Below are positions 1 to 59,307 of a stretch of DNA of 64,000 nt, piece by piece. Below the pieces are notes generated by a model that was not told the DNA's origin, ran no database searches, and saw only the letters and a list, made by a program, of their open reading frames with translations. Both the position numbers and the translations under genes were made by a program. Source of the stretch: Nitrospira sp. (GTDB lineage Bacteria; Nitrospirota; Nitrospiria; Nitrospirales; Nitrospiraceae); the NCBI GenBank assembly GCA_016873395.1, contig VGXG01000006.1, positions 1 through 64,000 of the forward strand, in the 5' to 3' direction. The first letter of the stretch is position 1; each line of letters begins with the position of its first letter.

Positions 1-118
1 GAGCAGCGGGGATGCTTAGTGCGGTCGAGCCGGAGCCTCTGAGCAGGGCAGGACCGGCCACCCCGCCCTTTTCCTTCGTCAGTCGATCAGATTCCGGGAG
101 GCGCCGGAGCGGAGGGCC

Positions 119-553: not shown

Positions 554-563
554 GCTTCGTCCG

Positions 564-1068: not shown

Positions 1069-1229
1069 GTACGACCGCCTTGCGCCCAATCTGATGGGGC
1101 ACCCTAGCGGGGCTTCCCCTGATTGTCAATCAGCGGGAGTCGCTTCCCCTTGTGGGGCCTGGAATCCCGGGCCCCTGCACACCGGCGCGCGAGGTTCCGA
1201 CGGGGAGCAGGCCCGCATCTGCCGTCGAT

Positions 1230-1398
1230 CAATGGTATAGTGTGGTGCCGTTTAGGCTGTATCGTCTATTGCTGCCGCACAGCCGGTGAGGCTGCACATC
1301 TCCTTGAGCATGGTGTTGAAAGACCCTGTTGGTGCTCTGTCAGCGGCACGATCACGAACGACTACGATGTTTTGGCCTACTACCCCCAGGAGGATGCC
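1230..1398 (+). other. 5' leader of the ABM-like gene
   Basis: A TATAGT hexamer near 1235-1240 could be a -10 box, which would leave a leader of about 150 nt with several GC-rich inverted segments (for example GGCTG...CAGCC around 1256-1276). No known riboswitch class was recognised. Confidence 0.25.
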
Positions 1399-1824: not shown

Positions 1825-1947
1825 GGATCCTGCCGCTCACGCGACCAATCCTCACGAGGCGGAGCGATCACGGACTTGGTCTTTCCGGCAATGGACGCCG
1901 GCTTGGAGGTCCGAGTCCCCCCTACTATCTATGCTGCGACAAGCGGG

Positions 1948-1976
1948 TTGACGTAGCAGAAGTGACCTGTTATATG
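1948..1976 (+). promoter_or_regulatory. sigma70-type promoter for arsM
   Basis: TTGACG at 1948-1953, a 17-nt spacer, and TATATG at 1971-1976, about 34 nt before the chosen ATG. Good match to the vegetative consensus. No ArsR gene or obvious ArsR operator was seen nearby, so arsenic-responsive control is not shown. Confidence 0.6.
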
Positions 1977-2009
1977 CAGCCATCTCGATATCTTGACGTG
2001 CGAGGGATT

Positions 2010-3197: not shown

Positions 3198-3204
3198 CTT
3201 CTTG

Positions 3205-3268
3205 AGCTGTCAGCCGTCGGCATTCAGCCTTTAGCTGATGGCTGGGAGCTGAAAGCTGAGAGCCATCG
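3205..3268. repeat. R1-family imperfect hairpin (TCAGC/GCTGA words)
   Basis: Spacer between arsM and arsS made of short words on one arm (GTCAGCC, TTCAGCC) and their complements on the other (GGCTGGG, AGCTGAAAGCTGA), able to fold as a long imperfect hairpin including GATGGCT/AGCCATC. Same style as spacers near 21.8, 22.2, 24.6, 31.7, 38.2 and 41 kb. Confidence 0.6.
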
Positions 3269-3276
3269 GTGATTTT

Positions 3277-4314: not shown

Positions 4315-4325
4315 CCCCCTTCGCC

Positions 4326-5459
4326 ATGGACCTTTCCTTCCTCACCTTTCTCCTGGTTCTCGTTCTGGCCTTCGCCAACGGCACGAACGATGTTTCCAAG
4401 GCCATTGCCACGCTGGTCGGGAGCGGGGTCACGAACTATCGCACTGCCATCCTCTGGGGAACGGCTTGGACGGTCCTCGGAGCCGCCGCCGCCGCCTTCG
4501 TCGCCACCGCCATGATGGCAACCTTCAGCAGCGGGCTGGTGCAGCCAGGAACGATCGCCTCACCCTTTCTGGCTCTTGCAGTTCTTATCGGAGCAATGGT
4601 CTGGGTGCTGTTTGCGTCACGGACCGGCCTGCCGGTCTCCACAACTCACGCACTGACCGGGGCCATTGTCGGCGCAGGGTTCGTCTCATTCGGGATAGAC
4701 GGGCTGGTGTGGCCGGCTATCGTGGGAAAAATCGTGCTCCCCTTACTCCTCAGCCCGGTGCTGGCCTTGACACTGTCGGTCTTGATCCATCCAGCGCTTC
4801 GCAGCCTCGCCGGCCACTGGGAAGGAACCTGTCTGTGCCTCATGCCCAACGCCCGCGCGCTGGTGACCGTGGACGCGCGAGGGGCTACCCGCACCCTGTT
4901 TCAAGCCACCGGCTTCGGGCAACCCGTCACCGCCGTGCCGTCTCAATGCGACCGGGCCGGCCTGCGGGGCCTCACGATCGGCTTGGACAGCATCCACTGG
5001 ATCTCCAGCGGCCTGGCCTCATTCGCTCGCGGTACGAATGACACACCCAAGATCGTCGCCATGCTCCTGCTCGGAAACACCGTGGCATCATGGCCGAGCG
5101 CTCGACTCCAGATCGCTGCTCTTGTAGGGGTGGCGCTGGCGATGGGAGCCGGCAGCTACTTCGGCGGGCTGCGTGTCACGGAGGTCCTGGCCGAGAAAGT
5201 CACGCGGATGGACCATGTCGAAGGGCTCTCGGCAAACTTGACGACTTCCTCGCTGGTGCTGGTATCCGCCACTTTAGGCCTGCCGGTCTCAACGACCCAT
5301 GTCAGCAGTTCCGCCATCATCGGAATCGGCCTGCTCAAAGGGCTTCGCGCCGTTCGTTGGGCCACCGTCCGGGACATGGTGCTGGCCTGGATCGTCACGC
5401 TGCCTGCTTCCGCGATCCTCGCAAGCCTGGCCTATCTGCTCCTCACCAGGCTTTTGTAA
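4326..5459 (+). CDS. pit: Pit-family inorganic phosphate transporter
   Basis: 377-residue polytopic membrane protein with the two hallmark repeats: FANGTNDVSKAIA near residue 17 and FARGTNDTPKIVA near 238, each paired with a GLPVSTTHA/GLPVSTTHV signature. This is the inverted-repeat PiT fold that symports phosphate with cations across the inner membrane. A soluble cytoplasmic loop lies near 165-215. The 11-nt spacing after arsS suggests co-transcription. Pit transporters also let in arsenate, so a link to the arsenic genes is plausible but inferred. Confidence 0.9.
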   Translation: MDLSFLTFLLVLVLAFANGTNDVSKAIATLVGSGVTNYRTAILWGTAWTVLGAAAAAFVATAMMATFSSGLVQPGTIASPFLALAVLIGAMVWVLFASRTGLPVSTTHALTGAIVGAGFVSFGIDGLVWPAIVGKIVLPLLLSPVLALTLSVLIHPALRSLAGHWEGTCLCLMPNARALVTVDARGATRTLFQATGFGQPVTAVPSQCDRAGLRGLTIGLDSIHWISSGLASFARGTNDTPKIVAMLLLGNTVASWPSARLQIAALVGVALAMGAGSYFGGLRVTEVLAEKVTRMDHVEGLSANLTTSSLVLVSATLGLPVSTTHVSSSAIIGIGLLKGLRAVRWATVRDMVLAWIVTLPASAILASLAYLLLTRLL

Positions 5460-5557
5460 GCTAACTTACAGTTTACCAGCAGCACATTGGGGTATTCAGC
5501 ATCCATCAAAACATATGAAGTTATCTTAATTACTATATTTGTCAGAAAGGACTACTG

Positions 5558-6661
5558 ATGGGCACGCAGTTGTCGGGATGGACTATGCGCCAAAGAGTCA
5601 GGCCATCACTGTTCCAATATAGACGCAGTCTTGCGATGACCTGTCTGTTCTTCGGAATTGGCTTCGGGCTGATCTCCGCAAAGACAGTCCAGGCCTTCGA
5701 CTGGGTCCCCTCTCAGGAAGAAATTCAGAAGTACCGGAAGACCTGGAATCCCCTGTCGAACGGGCCCATCTTCATCAGCGGCGTGGACATCCATCCCCAA
5801 GGGCAGTTGACGGTCCATCCGTTTCTTTTCACACAGATCAGCGAGAAGCGTTTCGGAAACGACCTCACCGTGAATCGAACTTCGGCGCCAACCCATTCCT
5901 ATCAGTTGAACCCCCTGGTCACCATCGCCTACGGCATCACGGACCACCTGGAGCTGAACGTCGGGCTTTCCGAATCCACGTTCTGGGCCCGTGATACGGA
6001 CCGCTTCAATCGGGGCAGGGGCGGCCCCGTGACCACCAATTCTGGCATGGGCGATACCCAGCTCTATCTCAAATACCGCCCGATCGTTCAGGACCCGGAC
6101 GGGTGGCGCCCCTCCGTCACCACGTTCAACATGATCGTCCTGCCCACCAGCCGATGGTTTACCGGCACTCAAAGCCCTCCCGGAGGGTTCGCCCCCTTAG
6201 GCCGACTGCCGGCTACCCGGTTTGGTTCCCTGACTTGGACGGAAGGTCTCATGTTCCGGAAGAACCTGCAGCCGTTCCGGATCAGCGGCGGTGTCTTTTA
6301 CTCGTACCATCTTCCGGGAAGTGACGCAGGCCAGACGACTTACACGGCAGACATCGTGAACACCCGGCTCATTCTAGAATATATCCTGGATGACAAACGG
6401 GGCTTCGGCTACAACCTCGAGTTCGTGGGCTTTCACGGACTCACCTGGCGCGCCGATGGCCATTCCATCAACACAGGCGGCGGGAATGGTTTCACAACAC
6501 TCGGCGTCCAGCCGACCATTCAATACCGCATCGGCGAACACTGGGTGGGCGCCGCGGGAGTCCTGTTCTCCGTCGCCGGGCAGAACACTCTCGCTGCCAT
6601 CTATCCCAACTTCTCCATTTACTATTACTGGAGCAAGAGCGGCAAGGTGATCATGCGGTGA
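5558..6661 (+). CDS. outer-membrane beta-barrel protein, transporter/MetA-type
   Basis: 367 residues. N-terminal basic segment and hydrophobic helix (TCLFFGIGFGLISAKTVQA) form a signal peptide with likely cleavage after VQA. The rest has alternating aromatic/polar beta strands (LNPLVTIAYGITDHLELNVG, GMGDTQLYLKYRPI, GVQPTIQYRIG) typical of the putative outer-membrane transporter family related to phenol-degradation meta proteins. It ends in VIMR, not the usual terminal aromatic. AAAGGA lies before ATG 5558; ATG 5585 is an alternative. The substrate is unknown. Confidence 0.7.
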   Translation: MGTQLSGWTMRQRVRPSLFQYRRSLAMTCLFFGIGFGLISAKTVQAFDWVPSQEEIQKYRKTWNPLSNGPIFISGVDIHPQGQLTVHPFLFTQISEKRFGNDLTVNRTSAPTHSYQLNPLVTIAYGITDHLELNVGLSESTFWARDTDRFNRGRGGPVTTNSGMGDTQLYLKYRPIVQDPDGWRPSVTTFNMIVLPTSRWFTGTQSPPGGFAPLGRLPATRFGSLTWTEGLMFRKNLQPFRISGGVFYSYHLPGSDAGQTTYTADIVNTRLILEYILDDKRGFGYNLEFVGFHGLTWRADGHSINTGGGNGFTTLGVQPTIQYRIGEHWVGAAGVLFSVAGQNTLAAIYPNFSIYYYWSKSGKVIMR

Positions 6662-6677
6662 ACTTAACGGGCAACCC

Positions 6678-6706
6678 TTGTAATCTACTTCCTTTCGGGC
6701 TAGGCT
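6678..6706 (+). promoter_or_regulatory. sigma70-type promoter upstream of VOC gene
   Basis: TTGTAA at 6678-6683, 17-nt spacer, TAGGCT at 6701-6706. A similar TAGGCT or TAGGGT -10 recurs in this window (24697, 34801), suggesting a local preference for G at -10 positions 3-4. Confidence 0.5.
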
Positions 6707-6711
6707 TAAAT

Positions 6712-6750
6712 CAACGATGAATGATGAACGCTGAGCGATGAATGCTAGGG
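6712..6750. repeat. R6-family GATGAATG word repeat
   Basis: Short quasi-tandem run (CGATGAATGATGAACGCTGA, then GCGATGAATGCT) just before the VOC gene. Related words occur near 31.75, 37.65 and 41.05 kb in the complementary sense. Confidence 0.45.
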
Positions 6751-6756
6751 TACGCT

Positions 6757-7365
6757 ATGACGGCAGCACGCCAACTCGATGATGTGCTGGCCCGCTACGT
6801 GGCTGATTTCGTGGCGCGCAACGCGGCAGCTAGGACGCTCAAGCAACAACTGGATGAGGTCGGCGTCGGGTTTTTTCCACTGGCCGACCACATCACCTTT
6901 CGGACCGACAACATCGACCGTCGTGCGGAGGAGTTCCTTGCGCTGGGCTATGCCTGCTCCGAGACGCTGAACTATGACGATTGGTTTGCCAAGGTCTACC
7001 GCAAGCCCGGCTATCCGTCCCTGTTCATCGACCAGGCCTATCCGGACGAACGGGGCAAGACCAGCATCATTCCCGGCTGGGTCGCCAAGTTCGGCGACCG
7101 GACGCTGCACCACATTGCGGTGAAGGTCGAAGACATCGAGCGGGCGATGGAGCGACTGAGTCGTTCCGGCGTCCGGTTTGCCGGATCGATCGTCGGTGAA
7201 AGGGGTGGATCCCTCCGGCAGGTCTTCACGGTCCCGGAGGAAGTGGACGGGGCTGCCTTTTCCGTTGTCGAGCTCACCGAGCGGCACGAAGGGTTTCTCG
7301 GCTTCTCGCCTCCTCAAGCCGACGGCCTCATGAAGTCCACCGCTAGAAAAACACGTGAGGGGTGA
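6757..7365 (+). CDS. VOC (glyoxalase-fold) superfamily protein
   Basis: 202 residues starting MTAARQLDDVLARY; TAGGG 6 nt upstream supports ATG 6757 over ATG 6742. Residues about 45-160 carry the vicinal-oxygen-chelate pattern: DHITFRTDNID near the start of the first module and LHHIAVKVEDIERAME in the second, with a later VVELTE strand supplying a possible metal-binding glutamate. Members are metal-dependent dioxygenases, isomerases or lyases; the substrate cannot be told here. It stands alone between the barrel gene and hflK. Confidence 0.65.
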   Translation: MTAARQLDDVLARYVADFVARNAAARTLKQQLDEVGVGFFPLADHITFRTDNIDRRAEEFLALGYACSETLNYDDWFAKVYRKPGYPSLFIDQAYPDERGKTSIIPGWVAKFGDRTLHHIAVKVEDIERAMERLSRSGVRFAGSIVGERGGSLRQVFTVPEEVDGAAFSVVELTERHEGFLGFSPPQADGLMKSTARKTREG

Positions 7366-7425
7366 AGATCGCCCCATTCATCATTCCTTATTCCTCACCC
7401 ATCACTCATCACCCATCACTCAATA
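7354..7425. repeat. R3-family GTGAGG/CCTCAC word hairpin
   Basis: ACACGTGAGGGGTGAAGATC faces a run of CTCACCCATCACTCATCACC words, giving an imperfect hairpin just after the VOC stop. Likely acts as, or overlaps, a transcription terminator. Confidence 0.5.
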
Positions 7426-7434
7426 TTTGTCTAG

Positions 7435-7464
7435 TTGCTCCGCCGCCGCGAAGTCTGCTATGGT
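7435..7464 (+). promoter_or_regulatory. promoter for hflKC
   Basis: TTGCTC at 7435-7440, 18-nt spacer, extended -10 TGC-TATGGT at 7456-7464, about 60 nt before the hflK start. Confidence 0.5.
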
Positions 7465-7524
7465 GGCCCCGTTGCTGTCACGGTCAGTCCTTCCTACTAG
7501 ACCGAGCGGCGAGAGGAGCGGTGG

Positions 7525-8571
7525 ATGGTCTGGGACCCGAAAGACCCCTGGGGCAAAAAGTCCGATCCCATCGATGATGTCCTCCGGCAGGCCCAATCGC
7601 AATTCCGCCAGATGATGCCGCTCCACGGCCTCCGGCCCCTCTTCCTGATCGTCGCCGCCGTCGTCCTGGTGTGGCAAGGGACGTTCATCGTGGCGCCGGA
7701 TGAAGAAGGCGTGGTCAAGCGCTTCGGCGACGTGGTGCGGAGCGCCGGCCCCGGCCCCCACATAAAAATCCCCTTCATCGAAACCGTCGAGCGGCCCAAA
7801 GTCGAGAAGCTGCACCGGCTGGAGGTCGGGTTCCGCACGGACCGGCAGGGCCGCCAGCAGATGCTGCCGAAGGAAGCCCTCATGCTGACCGGCGACGAAA
7901 ACATCCTGGCGGTCGAGTTCATCATCCAGTACAAGATCAAGAACGCCAAGGATTACCTCTTTAAGGTAGATGAGATCGAAGAGACCATTCAGAAGGCGGC
8001 GGAAGCCTCCATGCGCGAGGTGATCGGCAAGAGCAAGATCGACGAGGCTCTGACCAGCGGCAAGGCGCAGATCCAGCAGGACACCCAGACGCTGCTCCAG
8101 GGCATCCTGGATCAGTACCAGGCCGGGGTCCAGATCGCCGCGGTCCAGTTGCAGGACGTGGACCCTCCGGAAGCCGTGGGGGCGGCGTTCAAAGACGTGG
8201 CCAGCGCGAAGGAGGACCGGGAAAAGCTGATCAACCAGTCCCAGGGCTACCGCAACGACATCATCCCCAAGGCCAAAGGCGAAGCGGCCCAGATCGTCAA
8301 CCAGGCCAAGGGCTATGGACAAGCGCGGGTGGCCAGGGCCGAGGGCGAAGCCAACCGCTTTCTGAAGACGCTCAAGGAATATGACCAGGCCAAGGAGATC
8401 ATCAGCAAGCGCATTTATATCGAAACGATGGAAGAGGTGATGGCGGGCGTCGACAAAATCATCATCGATGGCAAGGCCGGCGACCGGCTGCTCCCCTACC
8501 TGCCGCTCGACCGGCTCCAGAAAGCGCCCAAGGCTCCAGCGGCCGCCGAGGAGAAGAGGTCCACGCCATGA
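7525..8571 (+). CDS. hflK: HflK, SPFH-family FtsH modulator subunit
   Basis: 348 residues. Cytoplasmic N-terminus (MVWDPKDPWGKKSDPIDDVL), one transmembrane helix near residues 37-53 (LFLIVAAVVLVWQGTFIV), then the SPFH/band-7 domain and a long alanine/glutamate-rich coiled coil. Known role: forms with HflC a cage around the FtsH protease in the inner membrane and tunes membrane-protein degradation. GAGAGGAG lies upstream of ATG 7525. Its stop overlaps the hflC start (ATGA), so the two are coupled. Confidence 0.92.
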   Translation: MVWDPKDPWGKKSDPIDDVLRQAQSQFRQMMPLHGLRPLFLIVAAVVLVWQGTFIVAPDEEGVVKRFGDVVRSAGPGPHIKIPFIETVERPKVEKLHRLEVGFRTDRQGRQQMLPKEALMLTGDENILAVEFIIQYKIKNAKDYLFKVDEIEETIQKAAEASMREVIGKSKIDEALTSGKAQIQQDTQTLLQGILDQYQAGVQIAAVQLQDVDPPEAVGAAFKDVASAKEDREKLINQSQGYRNDIIPKAKGEAAQIVNQAKGYGQARVARAEGEANRFLKTLKEYDQAKEIISKRIYIETMEEVMAGVDKIIIDGKAGDRLLPYLPLDRLQKAPKAPAAAEEKRSTP

Positions 8572-9428
8572 CCAAACAGAATCTTCTGATTGGATTGACT
8601 ACGATCGTCGTGCTGCTGTTCGTGCTCGGCGCGTCGCCCCTCTTCATCGTGGACATTACCCAGACCGCCATCGTGGTCCAGCTTGGCAAGCCCCAGCGAA
8701 ACATCACCGAGCCGGGCCTCAAGGTCAAGATGCCCTTCATCGAGGAAGTGACCTACTTCGACAAGCGCCTGTTGGACTATGATTCCTCGGCCCAGGAAGT
8801 CATCACCCAGGACAAGAAGACCCTCCTGATCGACAACTTCGCCAAATGGCGCATCACCGATCCCTTGAAGGTCTACCAGGCATTCCAGACCCAGCGGGGA
8901 GCCTTGCGGCGGCTGGACGACATCATCTATTCCGAGTTGCGGGTGGAAGTGGGACGCCATGATCTCTCGGACATCGTGTCCAAGACGCGGTCTGAAGTCA
9001 TGGCGGTGGTGACCCAACGCGCGAACGAGAAGGCCGCGGTCTACGGCATCGAGATCCAGGACGTACGGATCAAGCGGGCGGACCTGCCCGAGCAGAACGA
9101 GAAGGCGGTTTTCGCCCGCATGCAGGCCGAACGGGAGCGCCAGGCCAAGCAGTATCGAGCCGAGGGAGCCGAGGAAGCGCAGAAGATCAGGTCCGAGGCG
9201 GAGAAGGACCGGGAGATCATCCTGGCGGAAGCCTACAAGACCTCGGAGGCGCTGCGGGGCGAGGGTGATGCCAAGGCTTTCAAGACCTACGCGTCTGCCT
9301 ACCGCCAAGATCCGAAGTTCTTCGAGTTCACCCGCTCGATGGAAGCCTACAAGAAGAGCTTCGCCGGCAATTCGACCGTGGTCATGAGCCCGGACTCGGA
9401 ATTCTTCAAGTACCTCAAGCAACGCTGA
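8568..9428 (+). CDS. hflC: HflC, SPFH-family FtsH modulator subunit
   Basis: 286 residues. An N-terminal helix (TIVVLLFVLGASPLFIVDIT) anchors it in the inner membrane, followed by the SPFH domain (VVQLGKPQRNITEPGLKVKM) and a charged helical region (residues about 170-235) that packs against HflK. Typical family length is about 290-330. It overlaps hflK by 4 nt. It is convergent with fhs; the junction carries an R2 hairpin. Confidence 0.92.
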   Translation: MTKQNLLIGLTTIVVLLFVLGASPLFIVDITQTAIVVQLGKPQRNITEPGLKVKMPFIEEVTYFDKRLLDYDSSAQEVITQDKKTLLIDNFAKWRITDPLKVYQAFQTQRGALRRLDDIIYSELRVEVGRHDLSDIVSKTRSEVMAVVTQRANEKAAVYGIEIQDVRIKRADLPEQNEKAVFARMQAERERQAKQYRAEGAEEAQKIRSEAEKDREIILAEAYKTSEALRGEGDAKAFKTYASAYRQDPKFFEFTRSMEAYKKSFAGNSTVVMSPDSEFFKYLKQR

Positions 9429-9432
9429 CGCG

Positions 9433-9500
9433 CTGGCAAGTGGCTAGGGGCGAGAGGCACGTGGTCTCAATTCCTCCCCCATGCCACTCGCCTCTCGCCT
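9433..9500. repeat. R2-family GGCGAGAGGC hairpin at a convergent junction
   Basis: AAGTGGCTAGGGGCGAGAGG on one arm faces CCACTCGCCTCTCGCCTATC on the other. It lies between the 3' ends of hflC and fhs, where a bidirectional terminator is expected. Confidence 0.6.
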
Positions 9501-9504
9501 ATCT

Positions 9505-11199
9505 TCAGGACAGTCCCACGATCTCGCCCGTCTCCGGGTCCAGGTCGATCCGTTCGCCCGCCGGGTTCTTGGGCAGCCCCGGCATGAGCTGGATGCCGGA
9601 GCAGACGGCGGTCAGGAATCCCGCACCGGCCAGAATCCGAAGCTCCTTGACGGGCAAGGTGAACCCCGAGGGTCGGCCCTTCAACGCCGGATCGTGCGAG
9701 AGCGAGAGGGGGGTCTTGGCCATGCAGACGGGGAACCGCCCGAAGCCCAGCCTCGCGGCCTGCTCGATCTGCGATTCCGCCTGCTCTGCATACCGCACCC
9801 CGGCCGCGCCGTACATCCGACGCGCGACCGTCTCGATTTTCTGCTTGATCGGCGCCGCATCATCGTAGAGCGGGGCGTAGGCAGAAGGCTGATCGCAAGC
9901 CGCCATCACCGCATGCGCCAACTCCTCCGCGCCTTTGCCGCCGTCTGCATAGGGGGTCGCGACGGCTGCGCCCGCTGCGCCGGCCGACGCGGCCCAGTTC
10001 TTCACCAACTGGAGTTCCTCCTCGGGATCATCCCGAAACGCATTGACCGCCACCACCGCCGGCACGCCGAACGCCCGCACGTTGGCAATGTGCTGCTCCA
10101 GGTTGGCCAGCCCTCTGGTCAAGGCTTCCCGGTTCGGTCCGATCAGGCCGGAAGGGAGCGGCCTCTCCGCGCGGCCTGCTTTGATCGTCCCGCCGCCCCC
10201 ATGGAGCTTCAAGGCCCGGAGGGTCGCCACGATCACCGCTGCCTGGGGACGGAGCCCGGAAGCCCGGCACTTGATGTGAAAGAACTTTTCCACCCCCAGA
10301 TCGCTCCCGAAGCCCGCCTCGGTCACGACATAGTCGGCACAGCGGAGGGCCAGTTGATCGGCGAGGACGGAGCAGTTCCCATGCGCAATGTTGCCGAAGG
10401 GTCCCGTGTGGACCAGGGCCGGCGTCCCCTCCAGCGTTTGCACGAGATTTGGACACAGGGCGTCCCGCAAGAGTGCGGCCATGGCACCCGCGCACGTGAG
10501 GTCCTCGGCGGTCACCGGCTTCCCCTCTTTGGTGAACCCCACCAGGATGCGGCCGAGCCGGAGGCGGAGGTCCTTCAGGTTCACCGCAAGAGCCAGGATC
10601 GCCATCACCTCGGAGGCTTCGGTCATGACGAATTCCCCGTCACGATCCGGCTTGCCGGCCGAGCCGACGACCACCCGCCTGAGAGCCCGGTCGCTCACGC
10701 CCATCGCCCGCGGCCAAGTCATGCGCGCCTGGTCCAGGTTGAGGCTGTTTCCGTGAAAGAGATGGTTGTCCACAAAGGCCGCCAGGAGGTTGTGCGCGGA
10801 GGCCGCTGCATGGGCATCCCCGGTCAAGTGCAGGTTGATGTCCTCCATCGGAATGACCTGGGCTTTTCCCCCTCCGGCTCCTCCGCCTTTGATTCCAAAG
10901 ACAGGCCCTAAGGAGGGTTGGCGGAGCGTGACCACCGACCGATGGCCCAGCCGGCTGAGCCCCATGGCCAGCCCGATCGAGGTGGTGGTTTTGCCCTCCC
11001 CCAACTGAGTCGGATTGATGGCCGTCACCACCACGTACCGGCCGACCGGGCGGTCTGCCAACCGATCCAGAGCCGCTAAGGGCACCTTGGCCTTGAATCG
11101 ACCATAGGGGACCAGTTCATCGGCCAGCAGACCAAGATCCTCGCCGACTTGCAAAATAGGACGCGGCGTCACCGATCGAGCCAGTTCAAGATCGTTCAC
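9505..11199 (-). CDS. fhs: formate--tetrahydrofolate ligase
   Basis: 564 residues, normal family length. The ATP-binding loop NPTQLGEGKTTTSIGLA sits near residue 60, followed by RQPSLGPVFGIKGGGAGGG, both diagnostic. Catalyses ATP-dependent formylation of tetrahydrofolate to 10-formyl-THF in the cytoplasm, feeding one-carbon metabolism and purine synthesis. The GTG start at 11199 has GGAGG 6 nt upstream. Monocistronic by spacing. Confidence 0.95.
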   Translation of the reverse strand: MNDLELARSVTPRPILQVGEDLGLLADELVPYGRFKAKVPLAALDRLADRPVGRYVVVTAINPTQLGEGKTTTSIGLAMGLSRLGHRSVVTLRQPSLGPVFGIKGGGAGGGKAQVIPMEDINLHLTGDAHAAASAHNLLAAFVDNHLFHGNSLNLDQARMTWPRAMGVSDRALRRVVVGSAGKPDRDGEFVMTEASEVMAILALAVNLKDLRLRLGRILVGFTKEGKPVTAEDLTCAGAMAALLRDALCPNLVQTLEGTPALVHTGPFGNIAHGNCSVLADQLALRCADYVVTEAGFGSDLGVEKFFHIKCRASGLRPQAAVIVATLRALKLHGGGGTIKAGRAERPLPSGLIGPNREALTRGLANLEQHIANVRAFGVPAVVAVNAFRDDPEEELQLVKNWAASAGAAGAAVATPYADGGKGAEELAHAVMAACDQPSAYAPLYDDAAPIKQKIETVARRMYGAAGVRYAEQAESQIEQAARLGFGRFPVCMAKTPLSLSHDPALKGRPSGFTLPVKELRILAGAGFLTAVCSGIQLMPGLPKNPAGERIDLDPETGEIVGLS

Positions 11200-11369
11200 A
11201 ACCGGCCTCCAACTTGGTCACTTGGTACCCTGGAATTGACGGTCCCGCGCAGAGCGGGGCACAGTATAGCACAGCCCTCAACCCCGGCCGGGCAGGAGAC
11301 AGCAGAATGGTTTTGAAGAAATGGCGAGAAGGAGTCGAGGATGGGGTCCGAACAGGAACCGGAAGGGGT

Positions 11370-12368
11370 CTAATCCAGGATATACCGCTGCGGGTTCACA
11401 GGATGGTTGTTGACCTTCACCATGTAATGGAGGTGCGGCCCCGTCGAGAGGCCCGTGCTGCCGACCAATCCGACCACATCTCCACGCTTGACCCTCTGTC
11501 CCGGTTTGACCAGCATCTTGGACAGGTGGCCGTATTGCGTCTCAAAGCCATAGCCGTGGTCGATGGCAATCACGTTGCCCATCTTGGCGTCAAATCCGGC
11601 CACGGTGACATGGCCGCCAGCCGGAGCATGGACCGGGGCACTGGGCGCGGCCCCAATATCGAGACCATCGTGGACCGCCCTTTGGCCGGTGAAGGGGGAA
11701 ATTCTCAGACCGAAGCCCGAGGTCACCCAGCCCTTGACCGGCCAGACGGAGGGAGTGGAGGCCCAGCGAACGGACCGCTCCTTCGCCGCCTCGGTCAATT
11801 CCTCGAGGGTTCGTTCCTGAAAGACGGCTTCATTCTGCAACCAGGCGATTTTCTGCTGGACTTTATTGACCAGGTCTTTCTCCAAGCCTCTGGCTTCATC
11901 CGCGGCCTTCGGGTCTGATTTTTCCGATGCCCCCTCTCCCGATGCCCCAACTGATCCCTTGCCATCGGCTCCGGCATTCAGGCCATCACCCTCCACCAGC
12001 GGGGTCTCCTCGCCTCCCTGTCCGTTCAGATAATCCTCCGGCTTCAGCGACTCGATCCCCAGCATAACCCGCAACTTTTCGTTCACTTCCTTCATGGCTA
12101 GGACGCGCCGCTTCAAATCCTCCAGGGCCGTAGAAAATTCAGAAGTCCGCTCGCGGGCGCTGAGCAGCTCCTGCCTGATCGCTTGCAGCTCCCAGACTTC
12201 GCCTGTCTGGACGACGTACTGGGAGAGCAGGGCCAGTTCAGCCAGGACCAAGAAGACCCCGAGAATGACGGCTCGTTTTACAATGGCCCGCGGGAAGCTG
12301 AACCGCAGGGGCTTTGCCGTCGCGCCCCTGAAGATCACAATGGTGTAGGCATCATTGGGCTGGTTCAT
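11370..12368 (-). CDS. M23-family metallopeptidase with membrane anchor and coiled coil
   Basis: 332 residues. A signal anchor lies near residues 29-50, then a coiled coil (about 60-120), a low-complexity linker rich in G/E/S/D (about 125-155), a second helix pair, and a C-terminal LytM/M23 domain with HDGLDIG, DHGYGFETQYGHLS and GPHLHY, which hold the zinc ligands. Such proteins cleave peptidoglycan cross-links or, if partnered, regulate amidases at the envelope. All metal-binding motifs look intact, so an active endopeptidase is expected. Confidence 0.85.
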   Translation of the reverse strand: MNQPNDAYTIVIFRGATAKPLRFSFPRAIVKRAVILGVFLVLAELALLSQYVVQTGEVWELQAIRQELLSARERTSEFSTALEDLKRRVLAMKEVNEKLRVMLGIESLKPEDYLNGQGGEETPLVEGDGLNAGADGKGSVGASGEGASEKSDPKAADEARGLEKDLVNKVQQKIAWLQNEAVFQERTLEELTEAAKERSVRWASTPSVWPVKGWVTSGFGLRISPFTGQRAVHDGLDIGAAPSAPVHAPAGGHVTVAGFDAKMGNVIAIDHGYGFETQYGHLSKMLVKPGQRVKRGDVVGLVGSTGLSTGPHLHYMVKVNNHPVNPQRYILD

Positions 12369-38308: not shown

Positions 38309-40063
38309 ATGTCCTACTACTCCCGCTTCTATCCGTTTCTGAAGCCCTCCCTGCCCCGGATGACCGGCGCGGCGCTCTTGGTCATGGCCGTGGCCCTCCT
38401 CAACCTGGCCCTGCTTCGCTTGGCCGGAGTCCTCTGGGATCTCATCACCGTCGCGCGCGACGTGAGCGGCATGACCCGCGCGATCGGGCTCTTTCTGGGT
38501 TTGATGATCGTCCAAGGGCTCCTGTCGATGGGTCACAGCTACCTCACGGCGCAAGTGTCGCAACGCATCATGGCCGGCTTCCGGACACACGTGTTCGCGC
38601 ATCTGCAGACGCTCTCGCTGAGCTTCTTCGCCAAGCGCCGGACCGGCGAGATCCTCTCCCGGCTGATGAACGACGTGAACGTCATCCAGAGCACAGTGAC
38701 CGAGACGCCGATCGACTCGGCCAAACAAGTGGTCACCTTCGTCGGCGGCGTGGCCTTCCTGCTGTACATGAACTGGCGCCTTTGCCTGTTGATTCTCCTG
38801 CTCCTGCCGATCCTGGTCTTGGTGGCCCGCTTCTTCGGCAGGCGATTGAAGGCCCTGTCCACGTCCATCCAGGACCAGACCGCTTCGATCACCACGCTGG
38901 CGGAGGAAGTGCTTTCCGGCATCCGGGTCGTCAAATCGTTCGTGCAGACCGGCCGGGAATCACGCCGTTTCGCCAGCCGGATCGACCAGGCGCAGCACAT
39001 CGCCCTCCGCCGGGCGGCCGTGATGGCGATCTTCGTCCCGACCATCACCCTGTTGACCTTCGCCGCCGCCGCCGCGGTCCTGTGGTATGGAGGCCGGCAG
39101 GTGATCGACGGGTCGGTCTCGCCGGGCGACCTGTTCGCGTTCGTGCTGTTCGCCGGCATCCTGATCGGCCCCTTCGGCTCGGCGGCCAGGGTCTTTGCGC
39201 AGATCAAGGAAGCGCAGGGTGCCATGCAGCGGGTCTTCGAGATCCTGGACCAACAACCGGAGGTGCAGGATCGGCCGGACGCCGTGGATCTGCCGCCGAT
39301 CAGCGGCCACGTGGAGACGCACCACGTCAGCTTCGCCTATGACCCGCGCCAACCGGTGCTGTCAGACGTTTCCTTCGAGGCCAAACCGGGCGAGATGGTC
39401 GCGATCGTGGGACCGACCGGGGCGGGCAAGACGACGCTTGTGAACCTCTTGCACCGTTTCTATGATCCTACCGAAGGCGCGATCACCATCGATGGTTATG
39501 ACTTGCGCAAGGTCCGGCTGGAAAGTCTCTACCGCCAGATTGCGCTGGTGCCGCAGGAATCGATCCTGTTCGGGGGCACCATCCTGGACAACATCCGCTA
39601 CGGCCGCGAGACCGCGACGGAGGAGGAAGTGATCGCGGCCAGCCGGGCCGCCAACGCGCACGATTTCATCATGGCGACGCCGGACGGCTACCGGACGATC
39701 GTCGGCGAGAAAGGCGTGAACCTGTCGGGCGGGCAGCGTCAGCGGCTGGCGATCGCGCGGGCCGTGCTCAAGAACCCGCGGATCCTGATTTTGGACGAGG
39801 CGACCTCAGCCCTGGACTCGGAATCCGAGCGGCTGGTCCAGGAGGCGTTGGACCGGCTGATGGAAGGACGCACGACCTTTCTTATCGCCCACCGGCTGAC
39901 CACCATCCAGCAGGCCGACCGGATTCTGGTGCTGAACAAGGGCCGGATCGTGGAGGAAGGCACCCACGCGTCGCTGATGGAGCGGAAAGGACTCTACCAC
40001 TACCTGTATACGCTGCGCCTAGCGGAAGGCGAGGGGTTAGAGGCAAGTGGCGAGCGGCTCTAG
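38309..40063 (+). CDS. MsbA-like ABC exporter (fused TMD-NBD)
   Basis: 584 residues. Six transmembrane helices in the first ~310 residues, then a canonical nucleotide-binding domain: Walker A GPTGAGKTT, Q-loop LVPQESILFGG, signature NLSGGQRQRL, Walker B ILILDEATSALDS, H-loop IAHRLTTI. Half-size homodimeric exporter; MsbA-type lipid A/lipid flippase or multidrug export are the usual roles. The intact motifs contrast with the degraded ABC protein at 56 kb. Confidence 0.9.
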   Translation: MSYYSRFYPFLKPSLPRMTGAALLVMAVALLNLALLRLAGVLWDLITVARDVSGMTRAIGLFLGLMIVQGLLSMGHSYLTAQVSQRIMAGFRTHVFAHLQTLSLSFFAKRRTGEILSRLMNDVNVIQSTVTETPIDSAKQVVTFVGGVAFLLYMNWRLCLLILLLLPILVLVARFFGRRLKALSTSIQDQTASITTLAEEVLSGIRVVKSFVQTGRESRRFASRIDQAQHIALRRAAVMAIFVPTITLLTFAAAAAVLWYGGRQVIDGSVSPGDLFAFVLFAGILIGPFGSAARVFAQIKEAQGAMQRVFEILDQQPEVQDRPDAVDLPPISGHVETHHVSFAYDPRQPVLSDVSFEAKPGEMVAIVGPTGAGKTTLVNLLHRFYDPTEGAITIDGYDLRKVRLESLYRQIALVPQESILFGGTILDNIRYGRETATEEEVIAASRAANAHDFIMATPDGYRTIVGEKGVNLSGGQRQRLAIARAVLKNPRILILDEATSALDSESERLVQEALDRLMEGRTTFLIAHRLTTIQQADRILVLNKGRIVEEGTHASLMERKGLYHYLYTLRLAEGEGLEASGERL

Positions 40064-53043: not shown

Positions 53044-54480
53044 ATGCTGCGCATCCAAGAGGGCATCAGAGGGAAGGTCAGAGCGCTCGTCGACCAGCCG
53101 ACGGGGCTGGACGATATCGAGATCGACAATTTCGCCACCTCGGCCCAATTGCAGGCCTGGGAGTTGGTCCGCATCCCGCAATACCTGCGGACCTACGGCA
53201 GGATGGCGATCAAGCTCCTGCTGTTCCTTCTCTTGGTCGTCGCATTCATCCCCTGGACCCAGACGATTACCGCCACCGGCAGACTCTCCGCCTACTCTCC
53301 CTACGAACGGCCTCAGGACATTGAGTCGCAGATCACGGGCCGATTCAAGAGCTGGCATGTCCTCGAGGGGGTACGGGTCAAAAAGGGCGACTTGATTCTC
53401 GATCTCGACGATTATGATCCGAATTTCATGTCGCCCGAACTGCTCTCGCTGCTTGAGCAAAGGAGAACGGCGTTGGAGCAAACCCGCAAGGCGGCGTTGG
53501 AGCGAGCCGACGAGCTGACGAAGCGGATCACCGAGATGAACAACCTGGTCAAGACAGCCGTGCCGTCCGCCGAAGCCCGCGTGCTGGAGGCCGGAAACAA
53601 GGTGCGGGCCGCCGACCAGCGCGTGATCGCGGCCAAGATCACGCTTGATACGGCCGAATTGAACGTCAGCCGCAACAAGCAACTGGCCGAGCAAGGCCTG
53701 GTCTCGCAGCGGGAATTGGAACTGTCGATCCAGGCCGCGATCGCCAGCAAGGCCGAACTCAAGGCAGCCGAAGCCACGCTGAAGGAAGCCGAGCAGGCCA
53801 TGAGGGCCCTCAGCTTCGGCCGGGATCAGGTGAGCGCCGAGATGCTGCAGCGCCTCATGGAGGCCGAGGCGGCCCGCGCCAACGCCCTGGCCGACGCCGC
53901 TCGAGCCACGGATCAGGTGGCAGACGTGTCACTTCGCCTGTCGAACGCGACCCAACGCAGAATCGCCAGCCGCATCCTGGCTCCGATTGATGGGACGGTG
54001 GTGCGCATGGCCGAGGTAGGACCGGGCGAAACGGTCAGGCAAGGCGACAAGCTGGTCCGCATCTCTCCGCTCAGCGCAGATAAGGCGGTGGAATTGGTCG
54101 CCGACGGCCTGGATGCCCCGATCCTGAATACCGGCCGTAAGGTGCGGCTGCTCTTCTACGGCATCCCCGCCATTCCCCTGCCCGCCTGGCCCGAACTGAT
54201 GGCCGGCACCTTCGGTGGGGTGATCAAGGTTGTGGACCAGGTGGACGACGGCAAGGGTAATTACCGCTTTTGGGTCGTTCCGGACCCGGAGGACCGGCCC
54301 TGGCCGGAGCAGGCCCACGTGAGGCAAGGGACCAAGGTGATGGGGTGGGTGATCCTCAATCGTGTGCCCCTCTGGTACGAGATCTGGCGCCGGTTCAACC
54401 TGTTCCCGCCGGACTATCAGGAAGGGCCGCCCTCGCTGATTGACATCCTATTGCCCAAAGCCGGCCTGAGCGCCAAATAG
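53044..54480 (+). CDS. HlyD-type membrane fusion protein
   Basis: 478 residues. Cytoplasmic N-terminus of about 56 residues, one transmembrane helix (IKLLLFLLLVVAFIPWTQTI), split biotinyl/lipoyl half-motif (GRFKSWHVLEGVRVKKGDLI), a long coiled coil (about 135-305), the second half-motif (ILAPIDGTVVRMAEVGPGET), then beta-barrel domains. Periplasmic adaptor joining an inner-membrane pump to a TolC channel. First gene of a set with tolC-like and ABC genes in the same direction. Confidence 0.85.
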   Translation: MLRIQEGIRGKVRALVDQPTGLDDIEIDNFATSAQLQAWELVRIPQYLRTYGRMAIKLLLFLLLVVAFIPWTQTITATGRLSAYSPYERPQDIESQITGRFKSWHVLEGVRVKKGDLILDLDDYDPNFMSPELLSLLEQRRTALEQTRKAALERADELTKRITEMNNLVKTAVPSAEARVLEAGNKVRAADQRVIAAKITLDTAELNVSRNKQLAEQGLVSQRELELSIQAAIASKAELKAAEATLKEAEQAMRALSFGRDQVSAEMLQRLMEAEAARANALADAARATDQVADVSLRLSNATQRRIASRILAPIDGTVVRMAEVGPGETVRQGDKLVRISPLSADKAVELVADGLDAPILNTGRKVRLLFYGIPAIPLPAWPELMAGTFGGVIKVVDQVDDGKGNYRFWVVPDPEDRPWPEQAHVRQGTKVMGWVILNRVPLWYEIWRRFNLFPPDYQEGPPSLIDILLPKAGLSAK

Positions 54481-54619
54481 ACTGGAGGATCATTTTCACG
54501 CTCATTCGGCATGACCACCCGATCCTGTGTAACCGCCTTGGACCCGGCCCATTACGCTTGCCTCTCGCGGTGAACACAATACGGTTCGCGAGTCCGTGAC
54601 GGCTGAGGAGCACCTTTCG

Positions 54620-56137
54620 ATGCTGCGGCTTTGCAGATATCATTTGGTCACTGTGGGGTTCTTGCTCTCGCTTCTCGGCGCGGCTTTCGCCGCCCCTCCC
54701 GAAGCCGGGAAGCAGCCGGGGCCACAGACGGTGAGCCCGAAGACTGCACTGCCCCCCATTCCCCTCTCGCTTGACGAAGTCCTGGCCTGGGTGGACCGCA
54801 CTCACCCGCTGCTGCAAGGAGCCGGCACCGACAAGGTCGTGGCGAGAGGAAGGTTACTCAAAGCCTTGGGCGCCTTCGAGCCTTCGCTGGTCAACGATAT
54901 GGAGATCGAGCGATTCATCCCCCAAGTAAACCCGCAAAAGGGGAGCCAGACGGTCGGATTCAATGACACCTTTCTCGACATGCGCTCTCCCAGCGGCATC
55001 AGGGGGATTGCCGGCGTGAGGGAAGTGATCGGCACGGCCAGCATTCCCGATCTGGGCTTTGCCAACAACAGCAGACAAGTGTTGCTCGGCGCCTTCATCC
55101 CGTTGCTCAAAGGGCTCATGGTCAACCCGGAAAACGCCGAGCTCCAACGGTCGGGGCTGGCCGACCCGCGAGCCGACATTCAGATCGCCAAGACCCGCCA
55201 GGACTTGTTTCTGGGCGGAGCCACCCAGTATTGGGACTGGGTCGCCGCCTGGAAACAGGCGGACGTCCATCGACGAGCCCTCAAGGTGGCCGAAGACCGG
55301 TTCAAGCAAATCGAGCAGCGCGCCAAGGCCGGAGCGGCAGCTCCCCTCGACGCGGTCGAGGCGAACCAGGAGGTGCAGCGGCGGAAAGAGGCGCTCGTCG
55401 CCGCTACGCGGGTGGTCGAGCAGGAACAGTACAAATTGTCGATGTACCTCTGGGAGAAGGATGCTCCTGCCGCTCCGGGCGGCGAACGGGTGCCCGATTT
55501 CCCCAAGCAGATTTCACTCCCGCAGCCGGAAGCTGTCCGAGCCGACAAGGTCAATGCCCGAACGGCACGGCCGGAGGTCCGTGAAATCGACATCGAGGCC
55601 AGGCTCAACAACATCGACCTGGAACTGGCCAAGAACAACCTGCTGCCCAGCCTGGACCTGGAAGCGGCCCCGGCGCGGAATCCGGCAAACTTCGTCCTCG
55701 GCCTCGGATACCGGTTCGGAGCGGAATTCAGGGTTCCGTTTCTCCAGCGACACGCCACCGGCGAAGTGCTCGAAGCGCAGGGCAAAGCGGACCGTTTCGT
55801 ATTGATTCAGAAGTTCCGGGAGCAGCAAGTGATCGTGGACGTGGATAACGCGGTCTCGGCCATCGAACGGGCCAAGGAGCGGATCGCCGCGGCTGCCCAA
55901 TCGCTACAACTGGCTAGGACCCTGGAAGAAGGCGAGCGGTTCCGGTTCAGCCTCGGCGCCACCAGCGTGCTGTTCGTGAATCTGCGGGAGCGGAACTCCG
56001 TGGACACCGAAGGGCAGTACATCAGGGCCCTGGCCGACTACCAGAAGGCGCTGGCCCTTTACCAATGGGCCATCGGGGCCTGGGCCAAAACCCCGGCGTC
56101 GGCCATGCCGGTCAGCTATCGGCCGATCGTGAAATAA
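54620..56137 (+). CDS. TolC-family outer membrane channel
   Basis: 505 residues. Signal peptide (YHLVTVGFLLSLLGAAFAAP), then the two repeated helical-hairpin halves of outer-membrane efflux proteins, e.g. ATQYWDWVAAWKQADVHRRA and ALKVAEDRFKQIEQRAKAGA in the first, RFRFSLGATSVLFVNLRERN and ALADYQKALALYQWAIG in the second. GAGGAG lies 9 nt before ATG 54620. Forms the trimeric exit duct with the adjacent HlyD protein. A ~140-nt spacer separates the two genes. Confidence 0.85.
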   Translation: MLRLCRYHLVTVGFLLSLLGAAFAAPPEAGKQPGPQTVSPKTALPPIPLSLDEVLAWVDRTHPLLQGAGTDKVVARGRLLKALGAFEPSLVNDMEIERFIPQVNPQKGSQTVGFNDTFLDMRSPSGIRGIAGVREVIGTASIPDLGFANNSRQVLLGAFIPLLKGLMVNPENAELQRSGLADPRADIQIAKTRQDLFLGGATQYWDWVAAWKQADVHRRALKVAEDRFKQIEQRAKAGAAAPLDAVEANQEVQRRKEALVAATRVVEQEQYKLSMYLWEKDAPAAPGGERVPDFPKQISLPQPEAVRADKVNARTARPEVREIDIEARLNNIDLELAKNNLLPSLDLEAAPARNPANFVLGLGYRFGAEFRVPFLQRHATGEVLEAQGKADRFVLIQKFREQQVIVDVDNAVSAIERAKERIAAAAQSLQLARTLEEGERFRFSLGATSVLFVNLRERNSVDTEGQYIRALADYQKALALYQWAIGAWAKTPASAMPVSYRPIVK

Positions 56138-56166: not shown

Positions 56167-57843
56167 ATGCCTTCGGGAAGACCGTATACCCACCAGACTC
56201 AGGCCGGCCTGACCTGGGACACGATCGCCCGCCTGTCCCTGGTCCTGCGGCTGGAACGGAAGATCCTTGCTCTGAACGTCTCCTACGCGCTGGCGATCGG
56301 CCTGTTCTCGTTGATTATTCCCCTCACGGTCCAAGAGCTGGTCAATACCTTCGCCTACGCGATCCAGCCGATCATGATCATCACCCTCGTCAGCATCATG
56401 GCGGTGACCATGCTCTTCGTCGGCGGGCTGAGGGTGTTACAGTCGCGGACCGTCGATATCCTCGTCCAGCGGCTCTACGCTCGGATCGCGCTGGCGCTCA
56501 CCAAGCAGCTTCCTCGCTTCAAGGACGAGCTGTTTTCTTCATCCTACGTGAATTACTTCAACGAAGCCGAATTCCTGGCTCGGGCCATCCCGGTGATACT
56601 GATAGACCTGATCAACGTCGTGGTCGGTGGGATCGTCGGCATGACGCTGCTGGTGATGTATCACCCCTATTTCCTCGTCTACAACGCGCTGTTGCTGACA
56701 GGATTCGTAAGCGCGATCGTCATCCTCAGCCGAGGGGGACTGCGGATCGTGATGAAGCTGAGCGATCTGCACTATGAAGGTCTGAACTGGCTTCAGAACA
56801 TCGCCGACAACCTGCTGCACTTCAAGGCCACCGCGAGCACGCCGCTCCTGCTCAAAAAAACCGATGAGGTGGTTTACGAATATGAGGCGGCCAGGAAAAC
56901 GCGCTCCGACATCCTGCACCGCCAGTATAAGGGTTCGGTGGTCTGGCAGGCGTTGGGGCACAGCTCGTTGATCGGCATGGCTGGCTGGCTGCTGTCCATC
57001 GGCCAGATCACCCTGGGGCAGTTCGTGGCGGCCGAGGTCGTCGTGGGCGCCTTGATGCTCAACTTCGACACGGTCGCCCGACGTATCTATGCGCTTTTCT
57101 TTATCTTTACGTCCTTGAACACCCTGTCGTTCCTGTTTTCCCAGCCCACGGACAGCGAAGCCTCCAAGATTACGGTCCCCTTGCCGGACCCGACGATCCA
57201 TGGCGTCAGGCTGACCTGCAAGGATATCTCCTTTGCGTACCCAGGCTCCGAGCCGGTCTTCCAACACTTCGACATGGAGGTCGCTCCGGGCGAAAAAGTC
57301 GCCATCTTTTCCAACACCAGTACCGGCAAGACAACGATGGCGATGGTGCTGGCCGGCCTCTATGCCCCGACCACGGGCATCATCCGTTACAACGGCGTCG
57401 ACGTTCGGGACCTGGCCATGGACTCCCTGAACACCTGCCGCGGTCTTATTTTGGATTCTCAGCTCTCGCTGTTCGAGGGCACGCTGGAGGAGAACATCTC
57501 CCTGGGCCGTTCGGGGATCTCCTACAGCGATGTCCAGTGGGCCTTGCGCTTCGTGGAGATGGAAGAGGAGGTGGATGCGCTTCCGATGGGGCTGGGAACC
57601 CCGATCCGAGCCAGAGGGAAAGCGTTCACCACGAGTCAGGTCTTGCGGGTTCTCGTCGCCCGGGCCGTCGTCACCCGCCCGCAGCTCCTGATCCTGGACG
57701 GGACGCTCCACAGCATGCCGCCCAGCCTGCGCGAAACCCTCCTGCGGAGACTCTGCTCGAAGGAAGAGCCCTGGTCGGTCATCTTCGTCTCGAACGACCC
57801 CTCCCTGAAAGCCCACGTGGATCGCCGCCTGGTGGTGGAGTGA
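56167..57843 (+). CDS. ABC exporter-like protein with degenerate ATPase motifs
   Basis: 558 residues: six-helix exporter TMD (about 35-330), then an ABC fold. Motifs are altered. Walker A is S382-N-T-S-T-G-K388-T-T (Lys kept, first Gly lost). The LSGGQ site reads F-T-T-S-Q (487-491). Walker B ends L-I-L-D511-G512, so the catalytic Glu is Gly. The H-loop His is Asn543 (FVSNDP). The Q-loop is shifted (ILDSQLSLF). Hydrolysis is probably weak or absent. It follows the tolC-like gene by 29 nt and would be the inner-membrane part of a type I-like exporter. The TMD lacks an N-terminal peptidase domain. Confidence 0.8.
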   Translation: MPSGRPYTHQTQAGLTWDTIARLSLVLRLERKILALNVSYALAIGLFSLIIPLTVQELVNTFAYAIQPIMIITLVSIMAVTMLFVGGLRVLQSRTVDILVQRLYARIALALTKQLPRFKDELFSSSYVNYFNEAEFLARAIPVILIDLINVVVGGIVGMTLLVMYHPYFLVYNALLLTGFVSAIVILSRGGLRIVMKLSDLHYEGLNWLQNIADNLLHFKATASTPLLLKKTDEVVYEYEAARKTRSDILHRQYKGSVVWQALGHSSLIGMAGWLLSIGQITLGQFVAAEVVVGALMLNFDTVARRIYALFFIFTSLNTLSFLFSQPTDSEASKITVPLPDPTIHGVRLTCKDISFAYPGSEPVFQHFDMEVAPGEKVAIFSNTSTGKTTMAMVLAGLYAPTTGIIRYNGVDVRDLAMDSLNTCRGLILDSQLSLFEGTLEENISLGRSGISYSDVQWALRFVEMEEEVDALPMGLGTPIRARGKAFTTSQVLRVLVARAVVTRPQLLILDGTLHSMPPSLRETLLRRLCSKEEPWSVIFVSNDPSLKAHVDRRLVVE

Positions 57844-57960: not shown

Positions 57961-58776
57961 GTGAGCATCCGCCTTCAAGTGCTCCGTCGCAGGCCGGGCT
58001 GGGCTCAAATCCTGGTGAGCCTGATGATCGCGGGTCTGGGATTCACAGGCGCCAAAGCCCTTGGCCAGGTGGACGAAGACCTCCGCATCATGTACACGGA
58101 ATATACCCTGGCCGCCACGGACCTGGCCCACATTTCCGCCAATGTCATCCGGTTCCGGACCACCGTCATCCGGTCGCTGGAAGCTCCAACCCAGAAGGAT
58201 TTTGAACGGATCACGGCCTCGCTCCCGCACCAACGGGCCAGCATCCAGCACGCCGTGGACCGCTACGCCTCGGCCAGCTTGCGTGTATCACGAAGCGGGC
58301 GGAGCGAGCCGGAAGACATCAAGGCCGTGCAGGAAAGCCTCGACGCCTACTTTGCCGCCGCCAGCCAGACCACCCTGCTCATGAGCCAACTGTGGATCGC
58401 GAAGTCCCCGGAGGAGGCGGCGGCACTCCGAACCAAAGCCGAACAGTGGGCCGCCGATAATGCGGGCCCCAAGCTGATCCAGGTGAGCCTGGCCCTGGAC
58501 CGGCTGCTGGAAACCGTGGCCGAGGTCGCCAAAGACATGCGCGACGAGGGCACCAGGACCATCCGCCAGATCAGCGCAGCGCTGGTGGTCGGGAGCTTGC
58601 TGATCGCCTTTCTGAACCTGTTCACCACACGACACACGACACCGCCTGCGGCGGAGAGCGGTGAGCCACTGCCGGGATCGGCCGCCTTACCCGCCTCCTA
58701 CCAACCGGAACAGAAAGAGCCTCAGCCCTTTGCGCTCCCGCTCGAAAGCCCGGACCCGCTGGTCCGCCGGGAATAG
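57961..58776 (+). CDS. membrane protein with periplasmic helical domain, unknown function
   Basis: 271 residues from GTG 57961, with GGGAGG 7 nt upstream. One N-terminal helix (ILVSLMIAGLGFTGAKAL), a ~170-residue helical extracytoplasmic region (LAATDLAHISANVIRFRTTV, QESLDAYFAAASQTTLLMSQ) resembling four-helix sensor domains of chemoreceptors/kinases, a second helix (ISAALVVGSLLIAFLNLF), and a short proline-rich tail. No signalling domain follows. Located about 115 nt after the degenerate ABC gene; a TAGACT near 57901 might give it its own promoter. Confidence 0.65.
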   Translation: MSIRLQVLRRRPGWAQILVSLMIAGLGFTGAKALGQVDEDLRIMYTEYTLAATDLAHISANVIRFRTTVIRSLEAPTQKDFERITASLPHQRASIQHAVDRYASASLRVSRSGRSEPEDIKAVQESLDAYFAAASQTTLLMSQLWIAKSPEEAAALRTKAEQWAADNAGPKLIQVSLALDRLLETVAEVAKDMRDEGTRTIRQISAALVVGSLLIAFLNLFTTRHTTPPAAESGEPLPGSAALPASYQPEQKEPQPFALPLESPDPLVRRE

Positions 58777-58821: not shown

Positions 58822-59307
58822 CTATGGATGCTTGGAAGGGAGGAGCGGCAGACGCCCCTCTTTCTGAAACGGGAGGCGAAGCTCGCCGACGGGCGTCTTG
58901 ATCTGAAACCCGGCCGTGATGCGGTAGGCCGCGTCCGATCGGCCGACCAGCGAGGCGAGTTGCCTGAACACATCGGCCAGCTTGATCGAGACCGGGAGGG
59001 GAATGGTCGTCACGGCATGGGGCTTCAGCTCGAAGCCTGCGTCGGATTTTCCCTTTAAAAAGGGCTGGCCCTCGATCGCCAGATCATAGTCGTAGCCCAC
59101 CACCGTCAGCGAGCCCGCGCTCGCGTTCTCCACCTCCACATCAAACCGCAGATCCAGCCTGCGAAGGTCCATCCTGACCAGGCTGATCGAGACCTTCTTG
59201 ACCTCCGGCTTCTTGGCCAGCAGCGACACGCTGCTGCAGCCGCCGAGCGTCAGCAGGGACAACGAGCAGATCACCCCGACTGTGAGACGTTTAAACCGGG
59301 CAGACAC
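58822..59307 (-). CDS. LEA14-like (WHy domain) lipoprotein
   Basis: 161 residues. Lipoprotein signal with LTLGGCSS lipobox, then a single LEA type-2/WHy immunoglobulin-like domain (RLDLRFDVEVENASAGSLTV, YDYDLAIEGQPFLKG, TTIPLPVSIKLADVF). Such domains are linked to desiccation/stress tolerance but biochemistry is unclear. Its start overlaps the 3' end of rluF by 17 nt, so the two are co-transcribed. Confidence 0.8.
   Translation of the reverse strand: MSARFKRLTVGVICSLSLLTLGGCSSVSLLAKKPEVKKVSISLVRMDLRRLDLRFDVEVENASAGSLTVVGYDYDLAIEGQPFLKGKSDAGFELKPHAVTTIPLPVSIKLADVFRQLASLVGRSDAAYRITAGFQIKTPVGELRLPFQKEGRLPLLPSKHP

Follow-up and report, generated by a model that had tools for sequence, protein, structure and literature searches.

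A gene cluster of Nitrospira sp. probably encodes a tripartite envelope exporter that is built on a pseudo-ABC protein and may be driven by an ion gradient, which is the explanation that best accounts for the evidence overall. The cluster lies within the window, by which we mean the whole 64,000-nucleotide stretch of DNA analysed here. In this Nitrospiraceae MAG, four intact genes stand on the plus strand in the order HlyD–TolC–ABC–4HB, with purK/purE upstream and a small LEA_2-domain lipoprotein gene just downstream (58822–59307, minus strand). We propose that an HlyD-type adaptor and a TolC-type exit duct would assemble with an inner-membrane dimer of the pseudo-ABC protein, whose transmembrane domain (TMD) would be the working part. 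The ABC subunit itself is very probably not an ATPase, judging from the catalytic motifs that it and its relatives have lost.

The first gene specifies a 478-residue HlyD-family periplasmic adaptor (53044–54480, plus strand) that matches Pfam HlyD_3 and also, below that model's cut-off, the NCBIfam type I HlyD model. It agrees at 71–89% with its orthologs in Nitrospiraceae operon loci. Residues 210–221 (RNKQLAEQGLVS; 53671–53706, plus strand) form an RLS-type motif for TolC docking as defined by RxxxLxxxxxxS (PMC3391258), and this motif is retained in 50 of 53 family adaptors. It is followed by the gene for a TolC-family outer membrane factor of 513 residues (54596–56137, plus strand; two Pfam OEP repeats, 3.5e-33), by the gene for the 558-residue pseudo-ABC exporter subunit (56167–57843, plus strand), recognized by its motifs, Pfam match and predicted fold and free of internal stops, and by a fourth gene (57961–58776, plus strand) for a membrane protein with two transmembrane helices and a periplasmic four-helix bundle (4HB; Pfam 4HB_MCP_1, 1.2e-9). 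Gene calls and Pfam matches thus bear out the preliminary description, in which the HlyD, TolC and ABC genes were complete and in order. No RTX or leader-peptide (GG-leader) substrate was recognized among the neighbours of the cluster, and substrates can be encoded at unlinked sites. The HlyD and TolC partners alone point to export as the direction of transport.

The ABC subunit consists of a TMD (approximately residues 18–331; 56218–57159), which is the conserved core of the family, and a degenerate nucleotide-binding domain (NBD; approximately residues 345–558; 57199–57840; Pfam ABC_tran, 8.5e-14), both on the plus strand, as are the following motifs. Walker A reads SNTSTGKT (residues 382–389; 57310–57333), in which two of three glycines are gone and GKT is retained. 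The signature region reads AFTTSQ, with FTTSQ (57625–57639) replacing LSGGQ, and Walker B reads LILDG, its Asp being followed by Gly rather than by the catalytic Glu (57697–57702). The D-loop reads LHSM, and the H-loop reads SND, with Asn replacing His (57793–57795). The changes claimed earlier for Walker A, the signature, Walker B and the H-loop are therefore all correct. The window copy also retains the Q-loop Gln and the A-loop Tyr, and with these, GKT and the Walker B Asp in place, it may bind nucleotide.

The predicted fold is that of a type IV exporter, in a model of modest confidence (pLDDT 73, pTM 0.46). Foldseek ranks HlyB, from the HlyB/D complex (8dck), as the top match for this model, and PCAT1 and Sav1866 also match. 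A six-helix TMD fused to an ABC NBD, the latter matched by ABC_tran in sequence as well, places the modelled subunit among type IV exporters.

The degenerate motifs are not a peculiarity of this strain. At a threshold of E ≤ 1e-40, orthologs were recovered from 38 of the 61 relatives searched. They came from 32 of the 37 same-family genomes and from 6 of the 12 genomes in sister family f3; none at this threshold came from families f2 and f4 among these relatives. In a wider sample of the phylum, 61 of 245 genomes have a match. The alignment of orthologs proposed in the preliminary description, which took canonical motifs in orthologs as the sign of simple decay, reveals the same losses in every ortholog recovered, including both copies of tandem duplicates. 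Moreover, similarity to the window across Nitrospiraceae is 53–77% for the NBD versus 46–65% for the TMD, the NBD usually being as similar or more so, and dN/dS values for the degenerate NBD are 0.015–0.14 among Nitrospiraceae pairs. The NBD is thus held by selection despite its catalytic loss, and strain-specific decay is rejected; the TMD is likewise under purifying selection.

A tandem duplication of the ABC gene is present in 25 of 49 operon loci, a count in which some genomes are represented twice and a frameshift interrupts two of the first copies. In the latter two loci (L087, 6983–9478 and 8526–9269, genome G011; L062, 2356–4128), the first copy is split and the second is intact, and the split may be a sequencing error or a loss.

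A census of 122 family members from Nitrospirota, Bacteroidota and Pseudomonadota extends this pattern. The switch His of the H-loop is found in 0 of 107 members, a Glu follows the Walker B Asp in 2 of 106, and no member convincingly has the LSGGQ glycines, while the Walker A Lys is retained in 108 of 120. The same gene set occurs in Bacteroidota (Persicobacter L096 and L097, Aureibacter L098 and Riemerella L152), sampled as four loci from plasmid records, and in Pseudomonadota, mainly Sphingomonadales (L100, L153, L154 and L155). Members were found in 40 of 246 Sphingomonadales genomes and in 11 of 398 genomes of the Pseudomonadota phylum sample. The homology extends to the HlyD protein that accompanies the Persicobacter ABC protein (33% over 426 amino acids, 4.5e-82). 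A scan of viral contigs with the Riemerella homolog as query gave no match.

TMD trees that included type I secretion, peptidase-ABC and MsbA-type exporters as canonical controls recover the family as one clade (support 100/100 and 100/99), with the caveat that the control branches are long. TMD identity to the window is 21–27% for members from other phyla and 12–16% for canonical exporters. Two Nitrospira-type copies with 62–65% identity in Acidimicrobiia and Armatimonadetes MAG records (L046 and L049) are probably from mis-binned contigs. In two alphaproteobacterial genomes, the pseudo-ABC sequence lies inside a much longer open frame of 957–978 residues (L155, 7091–10024; L170 in genome G772, 957 residues), whose several hundred extra upstream residues may come from a true fusion or simply from an upstream frame that is open.

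Within this family, the NBD has been lost by degrees. The flavobacterial L152 and the pseudomonadotal L195 proteins have an intact Walker A and lack the catalytic residues, the Nitrospiraceae copies retain the KT of Walker A, the P-loop Lys is absent in sister family f3 and in Sphingomonadales, and the NBD of L100 is no longer recognized by Pfam. In two genomes of genus g24 of f3 (G056 and G058; loci L080 and L081), the protein stops after the TMD, at 346 and 337 residues. In an alphaproteobacterial genome (G657, locus L192), the TMD gene encodes 333 residues and its stop lies in an ATGA overlap with the hlyD start. HlyD and TolC genes adjoin the NBD-less gene in all three genomes, whose adaptors are among those that retain the RLS motif. 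The possibility that the NBD was split off as its own gene was rejected, as neither an NBD remnant before the next gene nor a related NBD elsewhere in the genome was found in G056 and G058, and no separate NBD gene was found beside L192.

An AU test rejects a single common origin for the NBD-less forms (p of about 1e-83), and the gene sequences indicate that the NBD was deleted at least twice, once in the two Nitrospirota genomes and once in the alphaproteobacterial genome. Purifying selection acts on the NBD-less TMDs (dN/dS of 0.27). Of 122 members, 120 have K or R at the position of Lys220 in the coupling helix; the two exceptions are the NBD-less proteins included in that set. The L080 and L081 genes (5504–11731 and 2–5210, respectively) lie directly upstream of genes for a NuoL-like Proton_antipo_M protein and for DabA, a predicted inorganic carbon transporter. 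Because first the P-loop and then the NBD were lost while the TMD and its partners were retained, ATP hydrolysis does not appear to be the conserved energy source of the family. The same losses speak against two roles considered in the preliminary description, weak ATP hydrolysis by the dimer and nucleotide as an obligatory gate.

If the TMD is the working part, the pseudo-NBD of Nitrospiraceae most likely serves in dimerization, in structure or in regulation, and some copies may still bind nucleotide. Other lineages have dispensed with the P-loop or the whole domain. Transport would be powered by an ion gradient through protonatable TMD residues, for which Glu290 of TM6 (57034–57036, plus strand) is the main candidate. 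This position is Glu in 119 of 122 members and Gln in three (L091, L036 and L037), and ten canonical exporters have S/Q/S/S/S/V/V/L/L/L there, such that the acidic residue is specific to the family. Y40, Q56, H166, S199, W208, Y239 and Q253 are, like E290, near-invariant, and E30, E57, E133 and D147 are partly conserved acidic residues.

The proposal of ion-gradient-driven export through HlyD and TolC is drawn by analogy with SbmA/BacA, an ABC-derived TMD that is driven by protons via TMD glutamates after loss of its NBD (PMC13316013). Energy coupling would resemble that of SbmA/BacA, with the substrate leaving through HlyD and TolC. A ladder of several glutamates like that of SbmA is not evident in the family TMD. 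The E290Q members argue against obligatory protonation at this position in those copies. Both they and the absence of a clear ladder speak against an exact repeat of the SbmA mechanism. We put forward a gradient of protons or other ions tentatively, as the leading mechanism and one with less than an even chance of being correct.

The strongest competitor, which we consider about one chance in four, is that the pseudo-ABC dimer is a passive or ligand-gated scaffold that simply assembles and gates the HlyD–TolC conduit, through which the substrate would run down its own gradient or arrive from another machine. This reading is consistent with the intact motifs of adaptor and duct, with conservation of the pseudo-NBD as a structural unit and with the fact that no energy-coupling motif is proven. 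However, the eight near-invariant TMD residues, polar or acidic in character, suggest more than a scaffold.

A second alternative, which seems unlikely, is that the pseudo-ABC protein senses an envelope ligand and passes a signal on to either a kinase or the 4HB protein, much as BceAB signals to BceS. Some Nitrospiraceae carry equally degenerate solo paralogs without HlyD and TolC, and these make it possible that export is not the only role of such proteins. Four solo loci (L083, 3973–8513; L070, 7566–12514; L086, 7121–11704; L089, 2812–7357) and a fifth placed by coordinates in genome G030 are followed by a two-TM histidine kinase of the intramembrane type with a short periplasmic loop and then by a sigma-54 response regulator, with no HlyD or TolC nearby. 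Other solo paralogs lie near family 2 and PMT-type glycosyltransferases (L084, 7399–12085; L088, 6489–11946; L093, 7609–13707), hinting at lipid-linked sugar handling. The kinase arrangement favours sensing, as does the sensory-type 4HB protein of the main operon, but the same kinase stands without the ABC gene in 11 of 15 genomes, which weakens a reading based on these neighbours, and the main copy is tied to HlyD and TolC rather than to a kinase. Unlike BceAB–BceS, moreover, kinase adjacency is confined here to a few genera, and BceAB differs in belonging to another ABC type and in having ATPase activity. The 4HB gene, suggested earlier to encode an added component, does recur regularly in fourth position in Nitrospiraceae (39 of 49 operon loci), but it is present in 0 of 7 f3 loci and none was seen next to the relatives in other phyla.

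That the pseudo-NBD dimer still hydrolyses ATP, residually or in a non-canonical way, is improbable: the Walker A Lys that most members keep and the intact Walker A of L152 and L195 would allow for it, but the near-complete absence of the catalytic Glu, the missing His and LSGGQ, and the several lineages that lack the P-loop or NBD and keep the same TMD and partners all speak against it.

Pairing with an unlinked active ABC half-transporter, for which the intact MsbA-like gene noted earlier at 38 kb and found here at 38309–40063 had been put forward, is the least probable reading of all: heterodimeric exporters commonly have one site that is degenerate (PMC7756269) and the pseudo-NBD is conserved in Nitrospiraceae, but the tandem second copies, rejected as active partners, are equally degenerate, the NBD-less members have no means of NBD pairing, and 15 of 15 genomes have the MsbA-like gene, whether or not they carry the locus. 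The MsbA-like protein is thus rejected as a partner and is most likely an ordinary lipid exporter. By contrast, the co-occurrence check proposed in the preliminary description ties the adaptor to the ABC gene, the HlyD ortholog being absent from 14 of 14 tested genomes without the ABC gene and present in 3 of 3 with it. TmrAB, BmrCD, TM287/288 and TAP resemble the family in NBD loss of the catalytic Glu, signature or His, but each keeps one active site, whereas tandem and single copies of the family are all inactive by motif, and no partner subunit with a canonical site was found.

The exporter proposed here can be placed among known systems by comparison of its parts. With type I secretion (HlyB–HlyD–TolC), it shares an adjacent adaptor with an RLS motif, a TolC duct and a subunit of ABC exporter fold. 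Unlike type I secretion, the family ABC protein lacks a functional Walker A/B, signature and H-loop, and the NBD is dispensable in some members. The window protein scores 136.9 against TIGR03375 (LssB), for which the cut-off is 693.1, and is also far below the cut-offs of the HlyB (TIGR01846) and PrtD (TIGR01842) models; by its ATPase motifs and these scores, it falls outside type I secretion.

With SbmA/BacA (SLiPT), the family shares an exporter-type TMD without an NBD (in L080, L081 and L192, known here from their genes), conserved acidic TMD residues and the joint loss of NBD and coupling helix. However, most members keep the pseudo-NBD, no TM0 or glutamate ladder was recognized, and SbmA imports peptides without HlyD or TolC. 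Neither full-length nor NBD-less members match the Pfam SbmA/BacA family, and by sequence the family lies outside SLiPT. The locus probably functions as tripartite exporters do, and perhaps also as a secondary transporter of the SbmA type, yet it belongs to neither group. SecA_DEAD/HlyD loci described in Nitrospirae have no ABC homolog and are therefore a different system (PMC4452313). We found no published description of this system, or of exporters like it with inactive NBDs, in the open literature.

ABC exporters are defined by ATP hydrolysis, and this family keeps the TMD and its HlyD and TolC partners across three phyla while related living bacteria display an NBD that is dead but kept, one that lacks its P-loop and one that is fully deleted. 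Family proteins carry ordinary ABC transporter annotation, and the NBD-less ones match no Pfam family; genome-based counts of ATP-driven exporters and of type I secretion systems therefore include false positives. There is some prospect, though we rate it below even, that the family constitutes a further class of tripartite exporter beside the ABC, RND and MFS classes, namely an ATP-independent, ABC-derived ion-gradient pump that is shedding its ATPase domain. The order of loss, from catalysis to P-loop to NBD, would form a natural series leading from a primary pump to a secondary transporter or gated channel, and the proposal that SbmA arose when a full ABC transporter lost its NBD becomes testable with living intermediates.
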